A DNA stretch of 64,000 bases, from positions 8,703,001 to 8,767,000 of the forward strand of contig NZ_JADEXS020000001.1 in NCBI RefSeq assembly GCF_015207005.2, given 5' to 3'. The translations under genes were made by a program, and so were the position numbers. The notes under the pieces were generated by a model. It was not told the DNA's origin, ran no database searches, and saw nothing but the letters and a program-made list of their open reading frames with translations. Origin of the DNA: Desmonostoc muscorum LEGE 12446 (lineage in GTDB: Bacteria; Cyanobacteriota; Cyanobacteriia; Cyanobacteriales; Nostocaceae). Within the stretch, counting starts at the first letter, position 1, and each line of letters opens with the position of its first letter. Shown one piece after another: positions 51,268 through 64,000 of this stretch.

Positions 51268-51420
51268 CATACTCACCGACCTTAAAGGTCGGTGATTCTT
51301 GACAGTTCACAGTAACCTGCTGCCGAAACAGTCTTACAGTCACTCCCTGTCCGTTTAAGGTCGTGCCGATGCCCCATGCCGACCATTTCTATATTTCTAG
51401 ATGCGTTTTCGTCTCTGTCG
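51264..51420 (-). ncRNA. Putative TnpB guide RNA (omega/reRNA)
   Basis: In IS605 elements the 3' end of tnpB and the right-end hairpin form the scaffold of the TnpB guide RNA, and the next 16-20 flanking bases act as guide. By position, the scaffold covers the tnpB 3' end and the 51274-51294 hairpin, and the guide would be the antisense of the pepP 3' end. The exact 5' end is not visible. Confidence 0.35.
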
Positions 51421-52457
51421 TGTTCAGTGTTGCAGTTTAAGCACAACACTGAGCGAACAGACAAATCAATCTTGCCCCAAGGATACCCACAGCAAGAGCA
51501 AGTTTGACTAGTAGGTTCCCATCTGTTAATGACTCTGAAATATCGACTAAGCTTTTGAGATTTAGCTTCACAAAATACCCGGAATTCACGCCATCCCTGC
51601 AAACTGATAACTCTTGCAAGCTTACGGTTTTTAACCATCCCTGACACATTTAAATCTTCCAAAACAATTACTTGATTGTCGTTAACTATTTTGGTTGACA
51701 GTTTATGCAAAAAGTCTTTTCTAGTATCAGAAATATGGTTGTGTAGTTTAGCTATCCTTACGCGAGTTCTATTTCTTCTTTTTGAGTCTTTTTGCTGGCG
51801 TGCTAATTTTCGCTGCAATTTCCGAATCTTGGGGTCATGTTTTGAGTAGCTAGGGCTTAAAGCTTTTTCTCCATTGCTCATTACAGCAAAAGTCTTCACA
51901 CCTAAATCAATACCTATGCTTTGGTTTTTAGCAACAGTAATAACGGGGTCAATTTCTACAACAAAGCTAAGAAAATAGCGGTTAGCACAATCTTTTATTA
52001 CCGTGACTGAACTAGGTTCAGATGGTAATTCTCTAGACCAAATTGGTTTGATTGTCCCAATTTTAGCTAAATAAACTTCCCCAGACTTTACAGAGAAACC
52101 AGATGCGGTAAACTCGGCTGATTGCGAGTTAGTCTTTCTCTTGAATCTAGGCACACCAATCGTACCCCCTTTTCTTTTCCCGTTACGAGAATTGAAAAAG
52201 TTTTTGTAAGCAACATCTAAGTACCTAAGAGACTGTTGCAATGGCACTGAGGAAACATCAGATAGCCATTTTCTTTCATCAGTCTTTTTAGATTGGGTAA
52301 GCATTGCCGAGAGTTTATTGTATCCAGGCAGCTTTTGAGATTGTTTACAGAACGCTAAAGCATCATTCCAGACAACCCTAACGCAACCAAACAACGAGCG
52401 CAAACTCTGTTGCTGTTGGTCTGTTGGGTAAAATCTATACTGATATCTAGCTTTCAT
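51282..52457 (-). CDS. tnpB: TnpB RNA-guided endonuclease
   Basis: TnpB of 391 aa, the ancestor-type nuclease of Cas12. The RuvC triad looks complete: IGIDLGVKTF (Asp), VIVLEDLNVSGM (Glu) and HDRDENASRN (Asp). The zinc ribbon CSCCGYPWG and CLNCNTEH lies between the last two motifs. The N-terminal helix-turn-helix (YRFYPTDQQQQSLRSLF) is typical. The stop codon lies inside the right-end hairpin. TnpB cuts at sites matching its guide and promotes retention of the element. Confidence 0.95.
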   Translation of the reverse strand: MKARYQYRFYPTDQQQQSLRSLFGCVRVVWNDALAFCKQSQKLPGYNKLSAMLTQSKKTDERKWLSDVSSVPLQQSLRYLDVAYKNFFNSRNGKRKGGTIGVPRFKRKTNSQSAEFTASGFSVKSGEVYLAKIGTIKPIWSRELPSEPSSVTVIKDCANRYFLSFVVEIDPVITVAKNQSIGIDLGVKTFAVMSNGEKALSPSYSKHDPKIRKLQRKLARQQKDSKRRNRTRVRIAKLHNHISDTRKDFLHKLSTKIVNDNQVIVLEDLNVSGMVKNRKLARVISLQGWREFRVFCEAKSQKLSRYFRVINRWEPTSQTCSCCGYPWGKIDLSVRSVLCLNCNTEHDRDENASRNIEMVGMGHRHDLKRTGSDCKTVSAAGYCELSRITDL

Positions 52458-52508
52458 ATCTTGTGTTCAAATTGGTCTGCTAAGATATTTTATATTGGTC
52501 AATTTGAG

Positions 52509-52898
52509 ATGGCAAGTAGTTTAAGACATGAAATACATAGTGTTTCAGACTTAAAAATACATTTGGTCTGTGTCACCAAGTATAGAAGAAAGATTTTTAC
52601 CATTGAAAGTCTTGAACTAATCCACAAATCATTTGTAGAAGTCTCTAAAAAAATGGACTTCAACGTGCTTGAATTCAATGGAGAATCTGACCATATTCAC
52701 ACAGTAATTGAGTTTCCACCTAAACTCTCAATATCTGAAATAGTTAATGCGTTAAAAGGTGTGTCTAGTCGTAGATATGGTCAAGCTGGATTCCCTAAAC
52801 CCTATGGTAAGCAAGCTCTATGGAGTCCTAGTTATTTCGTGTCTTCGGTTTGGGGTGCGCCACTCGAAGTTCTTAAAAAATACATCCAAGCATCTTGA
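52509..52898 (+). CDS. tnpA: IS200-type Y1 transposase TnpA
   Basis: Small HUH transposase of 129 aa from the ATG at 52509; the upstream in-frame extension to 52410 overlaps tnpB's start and is not conserved. ESDHIHTVIEFPP contains the HUH motif, SPSYFVSSVWG is the conserved C-terminal piece, and the catalytic Tyr is in VLKKYIQ. It excises and inserts single-stranded DNA. Its intact motifs suggest the element could still move. Confidence 0.94.
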   Translation: MASSLRHEIHSVSDLKIHLVCVTKYRRKIFTIESLELIHKSFVEVSKKMDFNVLEFNGESDHIHTVIEFPPKLSISEIVNALKGVSSRRYGQAGFPKPYGKQALWSPSYFVSSVWGAPLEVLKKYIQAS

Positions 52899-53718: not shown

Positions 53719-56574
53719 ATGTATATGACTAAATTTCAAATATCTGACTCAATACAATGGCAATTTTTCCCATTTGTAGTAAGTCGTAGTATTGTTCTTT
53801 TTACCAGCATTTTGTTATTTACAGAATCAAATATTGCAATTGCTAAAGAATATGCGGTAAACATTGCACAGACAACACAGAGCAATGATGCGACTCGCAA
53901 TGCTGCTGATGCGGCATATAAAGAGGGAAAGCAGCTATATGAGCAAGGAACAGGAGAATCTTTGTTAAAGGCGATCGCTAAATTTGAAGAGGCACTCCCA
54001 CTGTATCAAAAAATTGGCGATCGTTCATCAGAAGCTTTTACTGTCGCGCATCTGGGGAAAATTTATTCAGATTTAGGACAACAGCAAAAAGCACTCTTTT
54101 ATTTGAATCAAGCCCTATTACTTCGACGCCAGATAGGAGATAAAACAGGGGAAACTATTACCCTCAATAATATTGGTAGCGTCTACTCAGATTTAGGAGA
54201 ATTGCAAAAAGCACTCGATTCTTTCCACGAAGCTTTGTTAATCAAACGAGAGATAGGAGATAAAATCGGGGAAGCCCGTAATCTTAACAACATTGGTAAT
54301 GTCTACTTAAACTCAGGAGAATCTCAAAAGGCACTAGATTATTTTCAACAATCCCTTACCCTCAGACGTGAAGTGGGAGACAAATTAGGGGAAGCCCGTA
54401 CTATTAATAATCTTGGCTTGATTTACTTAAATTTAGGACAACAGCAAAAAGCACTAGATTATTTTAGCCAAACCTTGCCTTTATATCAAGAAATGGGAGA
54501 CAAATCAGCAGAATCTATTTCTCTTAACAATCTTGGTACAGTCTACTCAGATTTACGACAACAACAAAAAGCGATTGATTATTTTCAGCAATCTCTGATT
54601 ATCAGCCGACAGTTAGGAGACAAATTAGGGGAAGCTCGCACCATAAATAATATTGGTGATGTCTACTCCAAAATGGGAGAAAAACAAAAAGCCCTAGATT
54701 ATTTTCACCAATCTTTACCTATATTTGAAGCTGTAGAGAATAAATCAGGCTTAGCAGCTAACCTCAGCAATATTGGCATAATATACTCAGATTTGGGAGA
54801 ACAGCAAAAGGCATTGGATTATTACCAGCAATCTCTGTCTCTATATCAAAAAGTAGGAAATAGAGAAGCAGAAGCTCTGACTATTTATAACATCGCCTCT
54901 GCTGAACGCAAACAGGGCAATCTTAACGCAGCCCTGACTCAAATAAAAATAGTCATCAACATTGTTGAAGATCTACGTACTAAAATTAACTCTCAAGAAC
55001 TCCGCGCTTCCTATTTTGCTACAGTGCAGAATTATTATCAATTCTATATTGATTTGTTGATGCAACTGCACAAACAGGAACCATCCAAAGGATATGATGC
55101 TTTGGCACTGCAAACTAGCGAACGCGCCCGCGCCCGCAGTCTTTTGGAACTGCTGACAGAAGCAAAAGCTGATATTCGCCAAGGCGTGGAACCAAAATTA
55201 CTTTCTCAAGAACGTAACTTACAAAAACAAATTGATGTTTTAGAAAAACGTCGGATACAACTCTTAGGTGGAAACTACACTAAAGCCCAGCAACAAGCTT
55301 TAGAAAAAGAAAATGAAGCAGTTCTAGAAGAATATCAGCAAGTCCAGGTAAAAATCCGTGCCACTAGTCCACATTATGCAGCCTTGACTCAACCTCAACC
55401 TCTTTCACTCGCCCAAATTCAACAGCAAGTACTTGATGAGGACACCTTACTTTTAGAATATTCTTTAGGAGACAAGCGGAGTTATCTTTGGGCAGTTACT
55501 AATAAGAGTATCACCAGTTACGAACTACCCAAACGTGCAGACATTGAAGCGATCGTTCAAAAGTTCCGTCAAGAAATCACTACCCCATATCTCAAACATA
55601 GCCCATCTATAGATGCTCTATCTAAAATCATACTTGCACCAGTAGCCCCGCAACTCCAAAATAAACGCTTAGTAGTTGTTAGCGATGGTGCTTTGCAATA
55701 TGTACCATTTGCTGTGCTAACTAAACCTAATTCCCAAGGAACTAGCAACTATGAACCATTGCTAATTAACCACGAAATTATTACTTTACCCTCAGCTTCT
55801 ACAGTGGCTATTCTTAGAAATGAACACAAAGAACGCAAACCTGCCACTAAGACATTAGTTGTGTTAGCAGATCCCATTTTTAGTATTGATGATGAGCGTC
55901 TCCAAAGTAAAGCACAAGTATCTCCTCCACCTGTACCAGAAGGCAATTTAAACACCCTCGCTTTAACTAGAGCTGCTAGAGACTCAGAAATTAGTTTTCA
56001 GCGTTTACAATTTACACGCCACGAAGCCGAGCAAATTCTTGCCCTTGTTCCAGCTAACAAAGCCAAGCCAGCTTTTGACTTTACCGCTAGTCGTAACACT
56101 GCAACTAGCGACGAGTTGAGTCAATATCGCATCATTCATTTTGCTACTCATGGCATTCTCAACAGCAAACATCCAGAATTATCAGGGATAGTGTTGTCGC
56201 TATTTGACGACAAAGGAATGCCACAAAATGGCTTTTTGCGCTTGCATGATGTTTTCAACCTCAATCTGCAAGCAGAACTGGTGGTACTTAGTGCCTGTAA
56301 AACTGGACTGGGAGAGGAAGTTAAAGGAGAAGGATTAGTAGGATTAACTAGAGGGTTTATGTATGCAGGTAGTCCACGAGTTGTGGTGAGTCTGTGGAGT
56401 GTAGATGACCAGGCAACATCGGAACTGATGAAAGTATTTTATAAAAAAATGCTACAAGAAGGGTTAAAGCCTGCGGCAGCATTGCGAACAGCCCAGCTAG
56501 AAATTTGGCGCACTCAAAAATATGCTGCACCTTATTATTGGGCGGCTTTCACTCTACAAGGTGAGTGGAGATGA
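53719..56574 (+). CDS. TPR-CHAT protein (caspase-like protease)
   Basis: Protein of 951 aa. A hydrophobic N-terminus (SIVLFTSILLFTES...AIA) looks like a signal or anchor. About nine 40-residue tetratricopeptide repeats (GDVYSKMGEKQKALDYFHQ type) cover residues 70-420, a coiled-coil linker spans about 450-550, and the CHAT domain (about 640-951) has catalytic His in HFATHGILNSKHPELSG (near 811) and Cys in LSACKTGLGEEVKGEG (near 860). CHAT proteases are caspase relatives; in defence systems such as TPR-CHAT/Craspase they are activated by partner proteins, but single-gene TPR-CHAT proteins are common and mostly uncharacterised in cyanobacteria. The catalytic pair is intact, so protease activity is plausible. 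Confidence 0.93.
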   Translation: MYMTKFQISDSIQWQFFPFVVSRSIVLFTSILLFTESNIAIAKEYAVNIAQTTQSNDATRNAADAAYKEGKQLYEQGTGESLLKAIAKFEEALPLYQKIGDRSSEAFTVAHLGKIYSDLGQQQKALFYLNQALLLRRQIGDKTGETITLNNIGSVYSDLGELQKALDSFHEALLIKREIGDKIGEARNLNNIGNVYLNSGESQKALDYFQQSLTLRREVGDKLGEARTINNLGLIYLNLGQQQKALDYFSQTLPLYQEMGDKSAESISLNNLGTVYSDLRQQQKAIDYFQQSLIISRQLGDKLGEARTINNIGDVYSKMGEKQKALDYFHQSLPIFEAVENKSGLAANLSNIGIIYSDLGEQQKALDYYQQSLSLYQKVGNREAEALTIYNIASAERKQGNLNAALTQIKIVINIVEDLRTKINSQELRASYFATVQNYYQFYIDLLMQLHKQEPSKGYDALALQTSERARARSLLELLTEAKADIRQGVEPKLLSQERNLQKQIDVLEKRRIQLLGGNYTKAQQQALEKENEAVLEEYQQVQVKIRATSPHYAALTQPQPLSLAQIQQQVLDEDTLLLEYSLGDKRSYLWAVTNKSITSYELPKRADIEAIVQKFRQEITTPYLKHSPSIDALSKIILAPVAPQLQNKRLVVVSDGALQYVPFAVLTKPNSQGTSNYEPLLINHEIITLPSASTVAILRNEHKERKPATKTLVVLADPIFSIDDERLQSKAQVSPPPVPEGNLNTLALTRAARDSEISFQRLQFTRHEAEQILALVPANKAKPAFDFTASRNTATSDELSQYRIIHFATHGILNSKHPELSGIVLSLFDDKGMPQNGFLRLHDVFNLNLQAELVVLSACKTGLGEEVKGEGLVGLTRGFMYAGSPRVVVSLWSVDDQATSELMKVFYKKMLQEGLKPAAALRTAQLEIWRTQKYAAPYYWAAFTLQGEWR

Positions 56575-58009: not shown

Positions 58010-58633
58010 ATGACGCCGCGACTGACTCAAGAGGAATTAGCACAAATAGTTACTGAAGTTGAAAGTCTGCAAACGCGTCGAGAAGTCGAATTAGACCAAG
58101 AGCAGGTTAAAGAAATTTTACAGGAGATGAATTTAGCACCGGAGTTACTAGATGAAGCACTAATTCAGTTGAATCGTCGTCAAGCCTTGGAGGTGCAGCA
58201 ACGGCAAAATCGATGGATTACCTCTGGAGTGGTGGCACTCTTAGCGGTGGTGAGTGCATCTACAATATTTGTGATGCACCAACATAGTTCTGCACTTTCT
58301 CATGTTTCTGCTCAACAAGACCGCATCACTTTGGCACAAAATAATAGCGGCAATTTAGAGACAATTTCGCGCCAAAGCAATCCAGAAGTTTTTTATCGTG
58401 TCACTTTGAAAGATACACCCTTGGGTAAAAAACTGGCTCTCTCTTGTAATTGGACTGACCCCAACGGTCAAATTGTCAAGCAAAACACCTATCAAACCCG
58501 CGAAATTAATACGTCTGTTTGGAATACTCAGTGTCGCCACACTATTAATTCAGCTGCAACCATCGGCAAATGGCAGGTGCAAATGTTTTTGGAAGGCCGT
58601 CAAATTAGCGATGAAACCTTTCAAGTGAACTAG
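58010..58633 (+). CDS. Single-pass membrane protein with C-terminal beta domain (unknown)
   Basis: Protein of 207 aa. Residues 1-65 are charged and helical (TQEELAQIVTEVESLQTRRE), followed by a membrane helix (about 68-87, ITSGVVALLAVVSASTIFVM) and an extracytoplasmic beta-type domain (VFYRVTLKDTPLGKKLALSC, NWTDPNG, ending GRQISDETFQVN) with two Cys that could pair. A strong AGGAG precedes the ATG. It ends 6 bp before the synthetase-like gene, so they share a transcript. I do not recognise the family. Confidence 0.72.
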   Translation: MTPRLTQEELAQIVTEVESLQTRREVELDQEQVKEILQEMNLAPELLDEALIQLNRRQALEVQQRQNRWITSGVVALLAVVSASTIFVMHQHSSALSHVSAQQDRITLAQNNSGNLETISRQSNPEVFYRVTLKDTPLGKKLALSCNWTDPNGQIVKQNTYQTREINTSVWNTQCRHTINSAATIGKWQVQMFLEGRQISDETFQVN

Positions 58634-58639
58634 TCCAAT

Positions 58640-60451
58640 ATGGACAACATCCCACTTCATTTTCTTGGGTATTGGGGTTACGGCGCTGAACATCAGTTGG
58701 AAGCGCTGTTAACTGGTGTTTTGGAAAACCTCTCTCCAAACCTCTCCCCTACGAGGCAAGAGGCTTTGAATTTAGGGGTTAGGGGGTTAAGTCAGTTCTC
58801 TCCACAAGAAAATCATCTTCTTCCCATATGGAATGTTGTTCATATAGGACTAAATAGAAGTTGTTCACGGTTAGAAAATAAAATTGCTGGTGTTTCGGCG
58901 TCAGGAATATTAACTTCGCCCGATGCTTGGGTAAGTCTGGAGGAAAATAACTGCCTCATTTTGGGCAGAGAACCTTTCGGAAAGGTGCCTTTGTATTGGA
59001 CTGTGCAAGGACAAGTCATCTGGTTTGCAACTCAACTGCAACTACTCTTACCGATTTTGCAACCACCAGAAGTTAGTATTGCTGGTTTATACGGCTATGG
59101 CTGTTTTTCCTATGTTCCAACACCTTTTACTCCTGTGACTGGAGTGTTTGCAGTGACGGCGGGGACTGAATTAATTTGGCAGGGTAATTGTGAATTAGGT
59201 ATCCTTCAAACACCTAAATCTAAAAATATCAATTCCTGGCGACAAGCTCCAGAACAGCTAACAGATGAAGCTACGGCAATTAGGGAATTGCAAATCCTCT
59301 TAAAAAATTCCATTGGACAACAAATTGCCGATTTAAAGGATGAGCCTGTTGGGGTGTTTCTCTCTGGCGGACTTGATTCTTCAATTGTGGCGGCGCTACT
59401 AGTGCAGGCAGGGGTGAAAGTCCGCGCCTACACTTTGGATTTTGGTGATGCAGGGATTCCAGAATATCCCTATGCCCAACAAGTCGCGCAGTTTCTGAAA
59501 ATTCCTTTAGTCAAAGTGCCAGCAGAGCCAAATCATATCAAAAATGCTTTAATTCCTACGGTGCAGGCATTGGATTTACCTTTTGGAGATGGGGTATGTG
59601 TTCCGTTGTATTTGCTATCTCAAAAAGCTAGTCAAGAAACTCAGATAATTTTTAATGGGGAAGGTGGAGATCAATTATTTGCCGGTTGGACGAATAAACC
59701 TTTAATTGCCGCAGGTGTTTATCAGTCAGAAAATCCCGCCGGAGAGGAAACTTTTATCCAGCAATATCTCCGCACTTTTCACCGTCTTTGGGGATACGAA
59801 TCTCAAGTTTATCAGCCAGAAATATCTGCTCAAATAGAGAATTTGCATCCTGAAGATTGGTTGTTGGCGGCTCTCGATGCTACTGAGTGTCCATCTTTCC
59901 TGCATCGCCTCCGCCGTGCCAGTTTGATGCTCAAAGGAGCGCAGAATATCCATCCCCGTGCTACTGCTTTGGGGTTGGCTCATGGATTGCGGGTGCGATC
60001 GCCTTTTTGTAACCTAGATTTAGCACAGTGGACATTTCGTTTGTCTGGGGAACTTTGTTTACAGGGAGCCTGTGAAAAATATATCCTCAAACGTGCTGTA
60101 GAAAATTGGTTACCGCCGGAAATTGTCTGGCGACAAAAACGTGGGATGGGAGTTCCTTTAACTTCTTGGTGTTTAAATGATTTTTGGCATCAAATTGGTG
60201 TCTGGCTAAATCCAGAAATACTGGGTGCCAACAATCATTTTAATCCACACATCGCCGTCCAAATCGTCGAAGGTAATTTGGGAGGAGCTATTCAAGGCCG
60301 TCGGATTGGTGAGATTCTCTGGTTATTAATTATGTGGCAACTTTGGCGATCGCACTTCTTAAATGAAAACCTCAGCAAACAATCTTGGAATCATCCGTTT
60401 TGGTTACCTCGTTGGCTATGGAGAAACTACAAAATAATTCGTAATTCGTAA
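58640..60451 (+). CDS. Asparagine synthetase-like ligase lacking the glutaminase cysteine
   Basis: AsnB-type protein of 603 aa. The C-terminal synthetase domain is complete: PP-loop VFLSGGLDSSIVAALL (about 237-252), NGEGGDQLFAGW (about 335-346) and EKYILKRAVENWLPPEIVWR. The N-terminal glutaminase fold is recognisable only from LILGREPFGKVPLYW onward. The protein starts MDNIPLHFLGYWGYG, without Cys2, so glutamine cannot be the nitrogen donor in the usual way. Residues 27-54 (LSPNLSPTRQEALNLG) come from a dispersed genomic repeat. Cys-less AsnB relatives such as beta-lactam synthetase and lasso-peptide cyclase adenylate a carboxylate for intramolecular amide formation. Here the amide partner may come from the neighbours. 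No precursor-peptide gene is evident nearby. Confidence 0.86.
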   Translation: MDNIPLHFLGYWGYGAEHQLEALLTGVLENLSPNLSPTRQEALNLGVRGLSQFSPQENHLLPIWNVVHIGLNRSCSRLENKIAGVSASGILTSPDAWVSLEENNCLILGREPFGKVPLYWTVQGQVIWFATQLQLLLPILQPPEVSIAGLYGYGCFSYVPTPFTPVTGVFAVTAGTELIWQGNCELGILQTPKSKNINSWRQAPEQLTDEATAIRELQILLKNSIGQQIADLKDEPVGVFLSGGLDSSIVAALLVQAGVKVRAYTLDFGDAGIPEYPYAQQVAQFLKIPLVKVPAEPNHIKNALIPTVQALDLPFGDGVCVPLYLLSQKASQETQIIFNGEGGDQLFAGWTNKPLIAAGVYQSENPAGEETFIQQYLRTFHRLWGYESQVYQPEISAQIENLHPEDWLLAALDATECPSFLHRLRRASLMLKGAQNIHPRATALGLAHGLRVRSPFCNLDLAQWTFRLSGELCLQGACEKYILKRAVENWLPPEIVWRQKRGMGVPLTSWCLNDFWHQIGVWLNPEILGANNHFNPHIAVQIVEGNLGGAIQGRRIGEILWLLIMWQLWRSHFLNENLSKQSWNHPFWLPRWLWRNYKIIRNS

Positions 60452-60500
60452 TGACGCTCGTTCCTCGCTACCGCTGCGCTAACGTAATTCGTAATTGATA
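60443..60500. repeat. Direct repeat with dispersed GC-rich element
   Basis: TAATTCGTAATTCGTAAT (60438-60452) and TAATTCGTAATTGAT (60484-60498) bracket CGCTCGTTCCTCGCTACCGC, a dispersed Nostoc-type fragment also seen in part near 13855 and 32300. Confidence 0.6.
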
Positions 60501-60523
60501 GACGGAGTAACTCAGTTTAAGTT

Positions 60524-61855
60524 ATGGAGAGTAAGAAATTTTATAATTTTCAAACTTCCCTTAGTCCGCCATTTCCTTGGGAACAGGCTCAGGAGTTACT
60601 GAATAACTACGGTTCTCCGCTTTATGTTTATGATGGCGATCGCTTACGCCAAACTATTGAGTGTATAACTGGGGCTGTGAGCTATCCTCGTACACAATTT
60701 CGCTTTGCCAGCGTCACTAATGGTAACATTGCGCTGTTAAAAATTTTTCGCTCGGCTGGCTGGGGACTCCACGCTAATACGCCAGGAGATATTTTTCTGG
60801 GTTTGCAAGCTGGTTTTAACCCAAATGAGATTGTTTACAGTGGGAGCAATTTGAATCGGGCGGAGATGATACAGGTTCTTGATTGGGGAGTCACAACTCT
60901 CAATTTAGATAGTTTGGATCAGTTGCGGTTGTGCTGCGAAGTCTTCATTAACGAAGTTAGCAAAAATAATCCCCCTCATCTCCCTCATCTCCCTCATCTC
61001 CCTCATCCCCCCATCTCCCCACCCCGCCTGGGTTTACGCTTGAATTTGCCGGAGATTACGGGAGATAGTCGCATTGGTGTGCGTTCTGAGGAATTTGGTG
61101 AGGCGATCGCTTTGACTGGTGAAGTTGGACTGAAGTTGAGTGGTTTACACTTCTATCGGGGGACGGGAACTAATGCTACAGCAGCTTTCACTGAGGTGAT
61201 TGACACGGTACTCGCTACAGCAAAACTGTTACCAGATTGGGAATATCTCGATTTTGGTGGTGGCTTTGGCTATCCCTATCATCACAGCAAAGTAGGGTTT
61301 GATTGGGAAATATTTGGAGCTGAGTTAAGCGAGAGAATTGGGTGCTTAGGAAGGAAAATTGATTTGGTGATTGAACCGGGACGAAGTGCGATCGCTGGAT
61401 GTGCAACAATGCTTGCTCAAGTTGTTTCTGTCAAATGGCAACAAGACAAACAAATTCTCGGAGTTGATACCACCGTTGCTAATCTTTCAGTACCTTCAGT
61501 ACACGGTGCATACCGAGAAATCATCACCTGGAAAAAACAACTCCCCACTCCCCAATCCCCAATCCTCAGTCCCCAGTCCCCAATCCCCAGTCCCCACTCC
61601 CTCTTCACAACTGATGTTTGTGGTAACACAACTTACTCCAGAGATTATTTAGGCAAAAATTGCCAACTCCCAGCATTAGAAATCGGTGATATTATTGCCA
61701 TTTTAGATGTGGGTGCTTATGGCTATGCTATGTCATCTCACTTTTTACACCGCCCTAAACCTGCGGAAGTCTTATTAGAAAATGGCAGACATCGCCTAAT
61801 TCGCCAACGGGAAGATTACAACGTTCTGCTGGCGAATCAGGTGTTGGATAACTAA
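60524..61855 (+). CDS. Diaminopimelate decarboxylase-like protein without the PLP lysine
   Basis: Fold type III (alanine racemase-like) protein of 443 aa. The pyridoxal lysine of YAVKAN is Val: RFASVTNGN, Val64 (codon 60713). Phosphate- and substrate-side motifs remain: SGLHFYRGTGTN, YLDFGGGFGYPY (about 238-249), DLVIEPGRSAIAG (about 281-293) and DVGAYGYAMSSHF (about 404-416). The CESGD-type C-terminal motif is altered to TTYSRD. Without the lysine no internal aldimine can form, so classical decarboxylation is unlikely. Two Pro/Ser/His-rich insertions (residues about 149-166 and 339-360) are encoded by heptamer or CCCTCAT repeats. It is the third gene of the cassette, 72 bp after the ligase. 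Confidence 0.85.
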   Translation: MESKKFYNFQTSLSPPFPWEQAQELLNNYGSPLYVYDGDRLRQTIECITGAVSYPRTQFRFASVTNGNIALLKIFRSAGWGLHANTPGDIFLGLQAGFNPNEIVYSGSNLNRAEMIQVLDWGVTTLNLDSLDQLRLCCEVFINEVSKNNPPHLPHLPHLPHPPISPPRLGLRLNLPEITGDSRIGVRSEEFGEAIALTGEVGLKLSGLHFYRGTGTNATAAFTEVIDTVLATAKLLPDWEYLDFGGGFGYPYHHSKVGFDWEIFGAELSERIGCLGRKIDLVIEPGRSAIAGCATMLAQVVSVKWQQDKQILGVDTTVANLSVPSVHGAYREIITWKKQLPTPQSPILSPQSPIPSPHSLFTTDVCGNTTYSRDYLGKNCQLPALEIGDIIAILDVGAYGYAMSSHFLHRPKPAEVLLENGRHRLIRQREDYNVLLANQVLDN

Positions 61856-61884
61856 CGATTCACTACTAATATCCAATAAAAATT

Positions 61885-63186
61885 ATGAAGTGTATTAAAT
61901 GCGGAACTGATAATAAATTAAAAGAGCGGACAGCTAATCAAGGTCGGTGTGTAAAATGCAACCATCCGTTTGCCTTTGAACCGACAAGTATGGGTAAAAT
62001 TAAAATTACTGACCCTCTATTTGCCAAAGCTTTATCTGATATTTCTGCTAACAACACCTTATTTTTTACACCTAAACAACTATTCTATTTTTTAAACCTG
62101 CGTCTTGGGAGTAAGTCATTTTCTTCGGTATTTAGCTCGTTGTTCGTATATTTTTTTTGGAGTCTAGTGATAGGTTTGGGGTCAGCTAATTTCACTAGTG
62201 GAAATCAAGAAATTGCTGCCTTGGCACTGTTTATTTTTAACTCTTTTTATATTTTTAATCTTTTTCAAAATACATATTCTAGGAAGCTTAACCCCAAAAG
62301 TCGCAGAGCCAATGCCAGAGTTTTGCAAATTATCGGAATTATCATTCTTGGTGGAGGAATTTCTGCCAGTATATTGGTGATAAGTTCGTTCTATGCATTT
62401 ACCTTGAGCGTCCTCATGGGAATGGTGTCGATATATTTGGGAACTCAACAGCTACAAAATACTGGACTATCAACACAGGAATTTTTATTTTCTCAAAACG
62501 AGTTTGAAAATTGGGTGAATCGCTGGCGACAAATTAATGGTTTAATGGTCAAAATTCTTCCTTTACCACGCGAAGACAATACCCTAACTACATTTAATCC
62601 TGATGTTACTGCTTACAGTTTTGATAAATTAGTCGTTTGCGATCGCGCTACGATTGCTCAACTATTAATCGCTAATAATTTCCATTTTGAAAATAACTGT
62701 GCAATTCTGAGCATCACTGGTTATCCTCAAGGTATTTTTGAAACTATGATGCAAATGCTACGCCGCAATCCTGATTTGAAAGTCTATGCACTCCATGATT
62801 GCAGTCCCCAAGGAATTGGTTTAGTTCACCATCTACGTACTAGCCCTAAATGGTTTCAAGATAGCAATATTGTAATTATTGACATCGGATTAACACCGCG
62901 TCAAATTATTGCTGCTAAGCGCGGAATGTTCATTCAATCCTCTCCAGAATCGGCGCAAGCAGCAAAATATTTAACTGGAGAAATTCGTCAAAATTTATTT
63001 GTTGAGGAAATAGAATTTTTGGAATCTGGAAAGTTTGTGGAATTAGAATCTTTCACTCCCCAAAGACTAATTCAAATTCTGCAAAAGGGTATTGCTGGTA
63101 GTCAAAACCTCGAAAGTGATGACAGTGGCTTGTTTTTAGCGAATGATACAGGAAATGATATGTACGTTGTTCAAAGTTTCGGTTAA
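61885..63186 (+). CDS. Zinc-ribbon membrane protein with TOPRIM-like C-terminus
   Basis: Protein of 433 aa, not matched to a named family. Residues 1-30 form a zinc ribbon (MKCIKCGTDNKLKE, GRCVKCNHPFAF; two CxxC knuckles). Residues 80-190 hold about four hydrophobic helices (SLFVYFFWSLVIGLG, IAALALFIFNSFYIFNLF, IIGIIILGGGISASILVISS). The C-terminal 200 residues contain FDKLVVCDRATIAQLL, ILSITGYPQGIFETMMQML and VYALHDCSPQGIGLVHHL, which resemble the E, GYP and DxDPxG signatures of topoisomerase VI/Spo11-type TOPRIM domains; the first acid is Asp here. It follows the decarboxylase-like gene by 29 bp and is probably the last gene of the cassette. Function unknown. Confidence 0.75.
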   Translation: MKCIKCGTDNKLKERTANQGRCVKCNHPFAFEPTSMGKIKITDPLFAKALSDISANNTLFFTPKQLFYFLNLRLGSKSFSSVFSSLFVYFFWSLVIGLGSANFTSGNQEIAALALFIFNSFYIFNLFQNTYSRKLNPKSRRANARVLQIIGIIILGGGISASILVISSFYAFTLSVLMGMVSIYLGTQQLQNTGLSTQEFLFSQNEFENWVNRWRQINGLMVKILPLPREDNTLTTFNPDVTAYSFDKLVVCDRATIAQLLIANNFHFENNCAILSITGYPQGIFETMMQMLRRNPDLKVYALHDCSPQGIGLVHHLRTSPKWFQDSNIVIIDIGLTPRQIIAAKRGMFIQSSPESAQAAKYLTGEIRQNLFVEEIEFLESGKFVELESFTPQRLIQILQKGIAGSQNLESDDSGLFLANDTGNDMYVVQSFG

Positions 63187-63189
63187 TAC

Positions 63190-63290
63190 AGCGCTTCCTG
63201 CTGTTATGAAGTACAGTTTTTTCCCCACTCCCCGCTATCTCCTGTATCTTTTCAGGACTGAGAACGTACCTCATAACACCGGGAAGTGCT
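63190..63290. repeat. Imperfect 25-bp inverted repeat element
   Basis: AGCGCTTCCTGCTGTTATGA (63190 onward, 25 bases) pairs with 63266-63290, with about 4 mismatches, around a loop of about 50 bases that includes a heptamer-like CCCCACTCCCC. It sits right after the cassette and may serve as terminator. It also resembles dispersed repeats of Nostoc. Confidence 0.65.
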
Positions 63291-63751
63291 ATATGTTCAT
63301 CGGTTTGAGGATATGATGTCATGTTGACTATTTTAGACTTTTTAGAGTTAGTGTAACTAGGTATGTAAAGTTTTGTATGAGAATTCAATATTACTGGGAA
63401 TGAGGTAAAATTTCCATGTACTATATCGGATTGTGGGTATCATCAAAAGATAGTATTTAAGGAAAAATGGCTCATTTCAATATTATTTGTCTACCTATAG
63501 ACTACATTTTTAATTATAACAAATATTCAATTAATAATTCGTACAACAAGTACGTAGGCACAATTAAACCGAACTACATAAACTTATGTAAAGCGCCAAA
63601 AAAGCTTTCAAAATAGGCTTTTAAGCAATTTAAATTTCTTAATTTAGTTGTGTTTTTTAACGCCTACTTACTTAGTTACTTCAATGCAAGCAATTTCTGT
63701 GGGTATTTAACACAGGAAAGATGAAAGTATGCTTTTGCTAAAAAATACGTT
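63291..63751. other. Intergenic region upstream of the PKS gene
   Basis: About 460 bp, AT-rich. A short inverted repeat CGTAC-AACAA-GTACG lies at 63540-63554, about 200 bp before the PKS ATG, and could be a regulator site. No ORF. Confidence 0.45.
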
Positions 63752-64000
63752 ATGACTGAGAATACGCCATATATGCAGCAAAGTTCAAAAGAAACCACTT
63801 ACTATGAATATGGAGGCAGTGGCAGAGAAAAAGAACCCATCGCTATTATCGGTATGGGCTGCCGTTTTCCAGGTAGTGCTAATAGCCCAGAAGCTTTCTG
63901 GAAACTGCTGGTTTCGGGTGTCGATGCTATTACCGAAGTGCCAGAGTCACGCTGGAATATAAACAAATTTTACGACCCAGATATAACAAAACCAGGCAAA
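63752..64000 (+). CDS. Modular type I polyketide synthase, N-terminal part (runs off the window)
   Basis: The ATG at 63752 opens a frame that is still open at the window end (83 codons). After about 30 residues comes [20 protein letters not shown], the classic start of a ketosynthase domain, followed by [20 protein letters not shown], then [13 protein letters not shown]. This is the beginning of a modular PKS or a hybrid NRPS-PKS subunit. The active-site Cys and other domains are beyond the window. It is 565 bp downstream of the four-gene cassette, same strand, and may form one gene cluster with it. Confidence 0.9.

Follow-up and report, generated by a model that had tools for sequence, protein, structure and literature searches.

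We analyzed a window of 64,000 nucleotides from the genome of the cyanobacterium Desmonostoc muscorum LEGE 12446 (G000:C1:8703001-8767000, inside a genome of 9.6 Mb), and in particular a row of four genes near its right-hand end, here called g1 to g4, that leads into a polyketide synthase (PKS) gene. All five open reading frames (ORFs) are on the plus strand, with gaps of 6, 72, 29, and 565 bp. g1 (58010..58633) encodes 207 amino acids (aa) with one hydrophobic, transmembrane (TM)-like segment at residues 70-88. g2 (58640..60451; 603 aa) belongs to the AsnB family, with Q345 and W350 at the sites of the family's Glu/Tyr dyad, and g3 (60524..61855; 443 aa) belongs to the LysA family, with Val64 at the site of the pyridoxal phosphate (PLP) lysine. 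g4 (61885..63186; 433 aa) combines a zinc ribbon, hydrophobic helices, and a Toprim domain of the Topo VI-A/Spo11 type. The nearest named relatives of g3 and g4 were from Desmonostoc and Nostoc, both cyanobacteria.

These coordinates, strands, and gaps agreed exactly with an initial annotation of the window, which had described g1 as a membrane protein, g2 as a Cys-less AsnB-like ligase, g3 as a Lys-less decarboxylase-like protein, g4 as a zinc-ribbon TOPRIM-like membrane protein, and the next gene as a PKS, all of which held. It overlooked a fifth member of the set. This gene, g5, is a second Cys-less AsnB-like gene on the minus strand outside the window (G000:C1:8781730-8783457), beyond the PKS and ~15.5 kb past g4.

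A conserved five-gene module in cyanobacteria

At the level of sequence comparison, g1-g5 were shown to be a real conserved module, widespread in cyanobacteria and maintained by selection, and not a chance arrangement, because of the co-occurrence of the genes and their fixed residues. Within 195 genomes of the order, g4, g3, g2, and g1 were present in 49, 42, 41, and 45 genomes, respectively, where g3 and g2 were counted at E <= 1e-60 to exclude ordinary LysA and AsnB. Every genome with g3 also had g4 (42/42), and 36/195 held all four genes. In 28 of these 36 the genes were on the same contig within 15 kb, and their order was identical in 28/28. Seven of the other eight were split across draft contigs, and the last (G090) had g1-g2 and g3-g4 ~3 Mb apart. 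Eight genomes had g1 without g3 and seven had g4 without g3, some of these being weak or partial matches, and broken or partial module copies were found in G127, G180, and G066. A co-occurrence check across genomes had been proposed with the initial annotation, with scattered genes as the outcome that would speak against a module, and the four genes were not scattered.

Beyond the order, g3 was found at E <= 1e-70 in 24/292 genomes of a phylum sample, the source genome included, and two of these were outside the order; three of the five Desmonostoc genomes shown in that sample had it. Searching species genomes with the g3 alignment yielded 359 relatives, and the best 80 of the 359 were all titled cyanobacteria. 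An extra complete copy was carried on a conjugative plasmid of Gloeothece verrucosa PCC 7822. The relatives' loci described below comprise these best 80 of 359 plus others, and many of them end near a contig edge, where absent genes mean little.

The fifth gene was part of most of these loci. It was present in 78/120 loci, in 21/22 of the set L112-L133, and in 66 of the 93 fetched loci holding g1-g4, some loci being short in both the larger counts. Most g5 proteins had 550-610 aa, and their identity to g2 was 26-31%. In 69 of the 78 loci g5 was convergent past g4 and in three it was past g4 in the same direction, while in five, from Nostoc and Desmonostoc, it preceded g1 on the same strand and in one it was upstream and divergent. 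The five same-strand genes preceding g1 fall on another branch of the g5 tree. The source genome had four matches to PF00733, namely a canonical AsnB, g5, g2, and one short match.

Pairwise ratios of nonsynonymous to synonymous substitution rates (dN/dS), calculated with our own Nei-Gojobori script for the five genes against up to ten relatives, were 0.12-0.39, with dS near or >1 in distant pairs. g3 was 57-80% identical across most genera, and its tree grouped by genus without being strictly taxonomic (31 changes for 26 groups, vs a shuffled mean of 44). We read the descent of the module as mostly vertical with loss and some transfer. Nostoc mirabile CHAB5784 had two module copies (L164 and L188) on separate branches of the g3 tree.

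Retained and replaced residues in the module proteins

We scored residues of g2 and g5 against the source genome's own AsnB, and those of g3 against its own LysA, which were both found elsewhere in the genome in canonical form. Rows were the best per locus from L039/L040, L112-L151, L156-L235, and L237, with thresholds of >450 bits for g2, >400 for g3, and >500 for g5, and excluded any broken or short copies. The row set includes some genomes twice; by their last 150 residues, 104 of the 114 g3 rows, 94 of the 102 g2 rows, and 68 of the 77 g5 rows were distinct. The fixed changes REPLACEMENTS were identical in every g2, g3, and g5 row scored. The recurrence of altered residues that the initial annotation had looked for was thus seen in all rows examined, so this is not decay, and in particular not decay unique to this strain.

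AsnB-like proteins. g2 matched PF00733 (E 7e-54) and has no Cys behind its start Met. An N-terminal "MC" for the glutaminase nucleophile was found within the first 80 residues in 0/102 g2 and 0/77 g5 rows, whereas the canonical AsnB of the source genome begins MCGI; an internal VCSI in the g2 row of L218 was caught by a loose pattern and is not N-terminal. The ATP site was kept. The SGGxDS loop was present in 101/102 g2 rows (one gap) and 77/77 g5 rows, the Glu and Asp of GEGxD in all rows of both, and the Lys of RxK in 102/102 g2 and 75/77 g5 rows (two gaps). The Glu/Tyr dyad of asparagine synthetase (AS)-like amidating enzymes (DE..GGY) was replaced by Gln/Trp in 102/102 g2 rows and by Pro/Pro in 77/77 g5 rows. 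The initial annotation had stated that the rest of the active site was kept in g2, which was borne out for the ATP motifs and not for the dyad. g2 and g5 thus share the two-domain PF00733 family, the ATP-pyrophosphatase motifs, and RxK with beta-lactam synthetase, CarA, and lasso cyclases, and they share the absence of the Cys with enzymes of the beta-lactam synthetase/CarA type. Other amide-forming ligases are known to have arisen through loss of the glutaminase Cys. The two differ from these enzymes in their dyad residues and in being paralogues within one module that lacks the partners of those pathways. Against the lasso cyclase model NF033535 they scored 32.9 (g2) and 170.4 bits (g5), far under the cut-off of 525.

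LysA-like protein. g3 gave a near full-length match to 2p3e (E 8e-38) and 220 bits to TIGR01048 (lysA), under the cut-off of 297.9. It shares with LysA, a PLP enzyme of fold type III, the pocket for the cofactor phosphate and ring (GGG, EPGR, and the Tyr of GAY), which was kept in 114/114 rows. It differs in that the Schiff-base Lys was Val, the ring-stacking His was Tyr (Tyr211), the Cys/Glu of the CES motif were Thr/Tyr, and the Arg of RPxxY was Val or Ile, each in 114/114 rows. The claim of an otherwise intact active site therefore holds for the pocket motifs in g3 and fails for the ring His and the CES residues.

Membrane proteins. Family scans of g1 returned only weak matches to DUF3859 and MG2, under the cut-off. 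Judging from its sequence, the N-terminal part of g1 is probably cytosolic and the C-terminal part, with the near-invariant C146 and C175, probably outside. g4 has zinc-ribbon cysteines at C3, C6, C22, and C25, followed by a hydrophobic region at ~82-195 with three segments by hydropathy and four helices in the model. Its C-terminal half (~226-407) has the Topo VI-A/Spo11-type Toprim fold, which it shares also with JetD and MksG, and matched PF21180 (Spo11-type Toprim) at 26.6 bits, above the cut-off of 24.1. A conserved T-x-x-Q-L-x-Y, in which Q65 and Y68 were invariant in 63/63 cyanobacterial g4 rows, is reminiscent of the Spo11-type tyrosine motif. In Topo VI-A and Spo11 the catalytic Tyr is on a 5Y-CAP (winged-helix) domain, and this part of g4 was spanned by none of the structural matches to these proteins that were listed. 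g4 differs from Topo VI-A/Spo11 in its leading zinc ribbon, in the hydrophobic helices between the Tyr motif and the Toprim domain, and in the loss of the Toprim metal acids. In the 63 cyanobacterial rows, the Toprim Glu site was Asp in 58, S in 3, G in 1, and N in 1, the first DxD site was D in 52, N in 6, and S in 5, and the second was S in 42, T in 11, N in 9, and A in 1, never Asp. The second site was Asp in 14/40 g4-like rows from actinomycetes.

Repeats were seen in and beside g2 and g3. A dispersed repeat of ~60 bp at 60435-60496 spans the g2 end and the g2-g3 gap and has three other copies in the genome (84-94%). Within the g3 coding sequence, ~30-36 bp at 60963-61000 matched dozens of genome sites at 93-100%, and a second insert, rich in Pro/Ser/Gln, lies at about residues 339-360. 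Both g3 stretches look like a dispersed repeat grown inside the gene in this strain.

Related systems and candidate roles

Outside cyanobacteria, a Streptomyces plasmid (NBC_01237, NZ_CP108509.1, L236) carried three consecutive g4-like genes together with an AsnB gene resembling g5 (41% identity), which shares with g5 the GEGGDP..GGP replacement. The first g4-like gene was called by eye, the second by profile, and the third by tblastn. When profiles of 16 cyanobacterial g4 proteins and 16 actinomycete proteins were compared in hhalign, the match (probability 99.0, E 7.8e-18) began at the zinc ribbon and reached the C-terminus, over 312 columns. Querying a database with one Streptomyces g4-like protein, where only the 7994 candidates sharing most words were scored, gave 90 matches, and the named ones were from Streptomyces, Kitasatospora, or Actinacidiphila. 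For g1 and g3 there was no match in the 20 kb covered at the Streptomyces locus, and a g2 query found only the same AsnB. The Streptomyces cluster thus differs in its three g4-like genes and in having cupin-like and aldehyde-dehydrogenase-like genes (by eye) instead of g1 and g3. We infer that the g4 and g5 pair is the older core of the module. The Streptomyces genes form an operon-like run at L236:6710-14533, with the cupin-like gene first, then the three zinc-ribbon/Toprim-like genes, the g5-like AsnB, and the aldehyde-dehydrogenase-like gene. The second Streptomyces g4-like protein has a relative in S. venezuelae, SVEN_0194.

The initial annotation knew of no described system with this gene set, and we found none in literature and database searches, in which cover of the literature was partial. 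Each of g2-g5 is in a known superfamily, and none qualified as a member of the known functional families tried. The replacements common to all relatives examined point to a membrane-linked system not yet described.

We tentatively favor a membrane-bound, ATP-dependent ligase pathway, encoded by a self-contained module with g1-g2-g3-g4 in one direction and g5 adjoining. In this pathway g1 and g4 would hold a complex at the cytoplasmic membrane, where g2 and g5 would act as ATP-pyrophosphatases that adenylate a carboxylate. Having no glutaminase, they would take an amine other than ammonia from glutamine and form amide bonds in the manner of beta-lactam synthetase and lasso cyclases. g3, whose B6-cofactor pocket (phosphate and ring) is kept but which could form no internal aldimine, might hold PLP, pyridoxamine phosphate (PMP), or a pyridoxyl-amine non-covalently and so present or protect the amine. 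The Toprim domain of g4, lacking its metal-binding acids, would serve for docking or ligand binding and not for DNA cleavage. The pathway would yield either a small molecule with an amide link or a modification of the surface, and the PKS would not be involved. In its favor are the co-occurrence and order of the genes, the retained ATP site of g2 and g5 and their missing Cys, the retained B6 pocket of g3 without its Lys, the dN/dS values, the TM-like segments of g1 and g4, and CarA as a precedent.

Several observations weigh against this pathway. g3 lacks nearly all of the tested residues that do the chemistry, a Toprim protein would be an unexpected component of a ligase pathway, and one genome without g2 (G188), in which g1 adjoins g3, has kept g1, g3, g4, and g5. 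Beside the module we saw no exporter, tailoring, or carrier gene that was conserved. Its presence was not linked to exosortase (36/42 module genomes vs 129/153 others) or to nifH (14/42 vs 49/153), and the NtcA box was not enriched upstream (6/88 vs a shuffled mean of 11). g2 and g5 may also be inactive, since both dyad residues are gone and, in the AS-like enzyme PesC, Glu363-Tyr368 is a dyad that activates the carboxylate and a Tyr-to-Phe change abolished activity (PMC13060819). We infer from equal spacing that this dyad is the Glu/Tyr of DE..GGY. However, CarA is a Cys-less ligase and has Leu at the dyad Glu site and Tyr at the GEG position in our alignment, therefore loss of the Glu need not mean inactivity.

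Recruitment of the altered enzymes to a new reaction, as the initial annotation suggested, is possible, and a role without catalysis fits about equally well. The close rival, which we regard as a somewhat doubtful but serious option, is a membrane-anchored sensor or regulatory complex of pseudoenzymes. No bond would be made in it; g2 and g5 would bind ATP and an amino acid, the ligand of g3 would be a B6 vitamer or a diamino acid, and g4 and g1 would relay a signal through or along the membrane. All four enzyme-like proteins lack canonical catalytic residues and keep their ligand-binding frames, and no conserved metabolic or transport genes were seen nearby. The g3 superfamily has a non-enzymatic member, antizyme inhibitor, one chain of which was the last of the PDB matches to g3. 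However, the AsnB ATP-site residues are ~100% conserved in two paralogues, in our judgement more than docking would need, the dyad Glu is also lost in the ligase CarA, and Pfam and NCBIfam (NCBIfam only for g5) gave no known transcription-factor or output domain in g1-g5. We prefer the ligase pathway over a sensor because both paralogues conserve the ATP site almost completely.

A role in defense or plasmid control, with g4 as a membrane-tethered relative of JetD, MksG, and Spo11 and the AsnB-like and LysA-like partners sensing or modifying, is improbable. The second DxD site of g4 is never Asp in the cyanobacterial rows, and the identity of g3 across genera and the grouping of its tree by genus are unlike what we would expect of fast-evolving defense genes. 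PADLOC, with its models of known anti-phage defense, gave no match for g1, g3, and g4 at E <= 0.1, and only weak QueC-like matches for g2 (E 8.9e-6) and g5 (E 0.062).

Slightly less credible again is a cyanobacterial counterpart of the XrtA/PEP-CTERM pair of exopolysaccharide amidotransferase and PLP-dependent decarboxylase, modifying sugars or peptides of the envelope. The XrtA/PEP-CTERM amidotransferase and decarboxylase genes are neighbors, their AsnB-like and LysA-like families are shared with the module by model names, and TIGR03108 and TIGR03099 were among the better matches of g2/g5 and g3, respectively. However, the scores were far under the cut-offs (147 and 242 bits for g2 and g5 vs 816.9 for TIGR03108, and 91.8 bits for g3 vs 478.45 for TIGR03099), the catalytic residues of g2, g3, and g5, among them the Cys and the Lys, are lost, and exosortase presence is unrelated to the module.

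The g4-g5 gap and the meaning of the module

The left end of a 15.4 kb island lies at 63192..64000 on the plus strand, and the island runs past the window to ~78603 in window numbering. It carries the PKS, two TauD-type dioxygenases, an IS4/5 transposase, and HlyD and FtsX-type exporter genes. The PKS ORF begins at 63752, is open at the window end (63752..64000), and encodes a type I PKS of 2814 aa (KS-AT-DH-MT-ER-KR-ACP-TE). Compared with Desmonostoc geniculatum HA4340-LM1 (L159), the source genome was colinear up to 63192 and again from ~78603, and 306 bp with a g4-like relic stood in place of the island. Nostoc linckia z4 (L163) likewise had no island between these genes, and its g4-g5 gap contained a g4-like relic. 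In the source genome, a fragment from the C-terminal end of g4 is found where the island ends on its far side (G000:C1:8781487-8781663). The PKS was not kept beside the module in relatives; only 2/120 of their loci had PKS matches >200 bits, both distant and beyond g5 (L186, 36%, and L234, 33%). Membership of g1-g4 in the neighboring PKS biosynthetic cluster, which has the adjacency of 565 bp in this strain in its favor, is thus contradicted by the absence of the island in two close relatives and very unlikely, and the tie between the PKS and the four genes that the initial annotation drew is not supported. The PKS is not part of the module, and by sequence comparison the island looks like a later insertion between g4 and g5.

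Eight loci of Anabaena, Dolichospermum, and Cuspidothrix (L114, L115, L195, L204, L209, L217, L218, and L219) had an ATPase-like gene between g4 and g5, and six of these eight gaps also had an HNH-like gene, by eye a Septu-like defense pair. Because of the PKS island and these ATPase-like and HNH-like inserts, the g4-g5 gap looks like an insertion hot spot.

Upstream of g1, the window encodes a 951 aa TPR-repeat protein, CHAT-like by eye (53719-56574), and the Microcoleus-type loci L193, L200 (in pieces), and L211 likewise carry relatives of it (~54-59%) upstream of g1. TnpB-like and Y1-transposase-like ORFs lie back to back at 51282-52898, by eye an IS200/IS605-type element. The D. geniculatum record, a metagenome-assembled genome (MAG), lacks g1 and the first ~106 codons of g2 at L159 8356-8460, as if by one deletion, and keeps the rest.

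That g2, g3, and g5 are decaying copies of AsnB and LysA is the least credible explanation, since the broken or partial copies in some genomes and the incomplete D. geniculatum record are set against dN/dS values of the range given above, canonical AsnB and LysA genes elsewhere in the genome, and identical replacements in all rows, which contradict it.

These results bear on how the locus is annotated. The database names "diaminopimelate decarboxylase" and "asparagine synthetase B family protein" are unsupported by the catalytic residues of these proteins, and the adjacent PKS cluster should not be drawn with g1-g4 included. A bolder reading, as tentative as the ligase pathway, is that the module would be a machine at the membrane of a kind not described before. 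In it a Toprim domain of the Topo VI-A/Spo11 type, removed from DNA work and placed behind a zinc ribbon and membrane helices, would be coupled to divergent ATP enzymes of the AsnB type. The g4-g5 pair, common with Streptomyces, would be its ancient core, to which cyanobacteria would have added a second AsnB and a PLP barrel working without its Lys. The machine would carry out new chemistry, either Lys-free B6 chemistry or ligation, or would form a nutrient-sensing complex made only of former enzymes. If the module is an enzyme pathway, PLP proteins of fold type III and AS-family ligases would work without residues thought to define their chemistry. A sensor role would make the module a rare complex built from several unrelated pseudoenzymes. 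Either way, a Toprim membrane family common to cyanobacteria and Streptomyces gains a defined genetic context and concrete residues.

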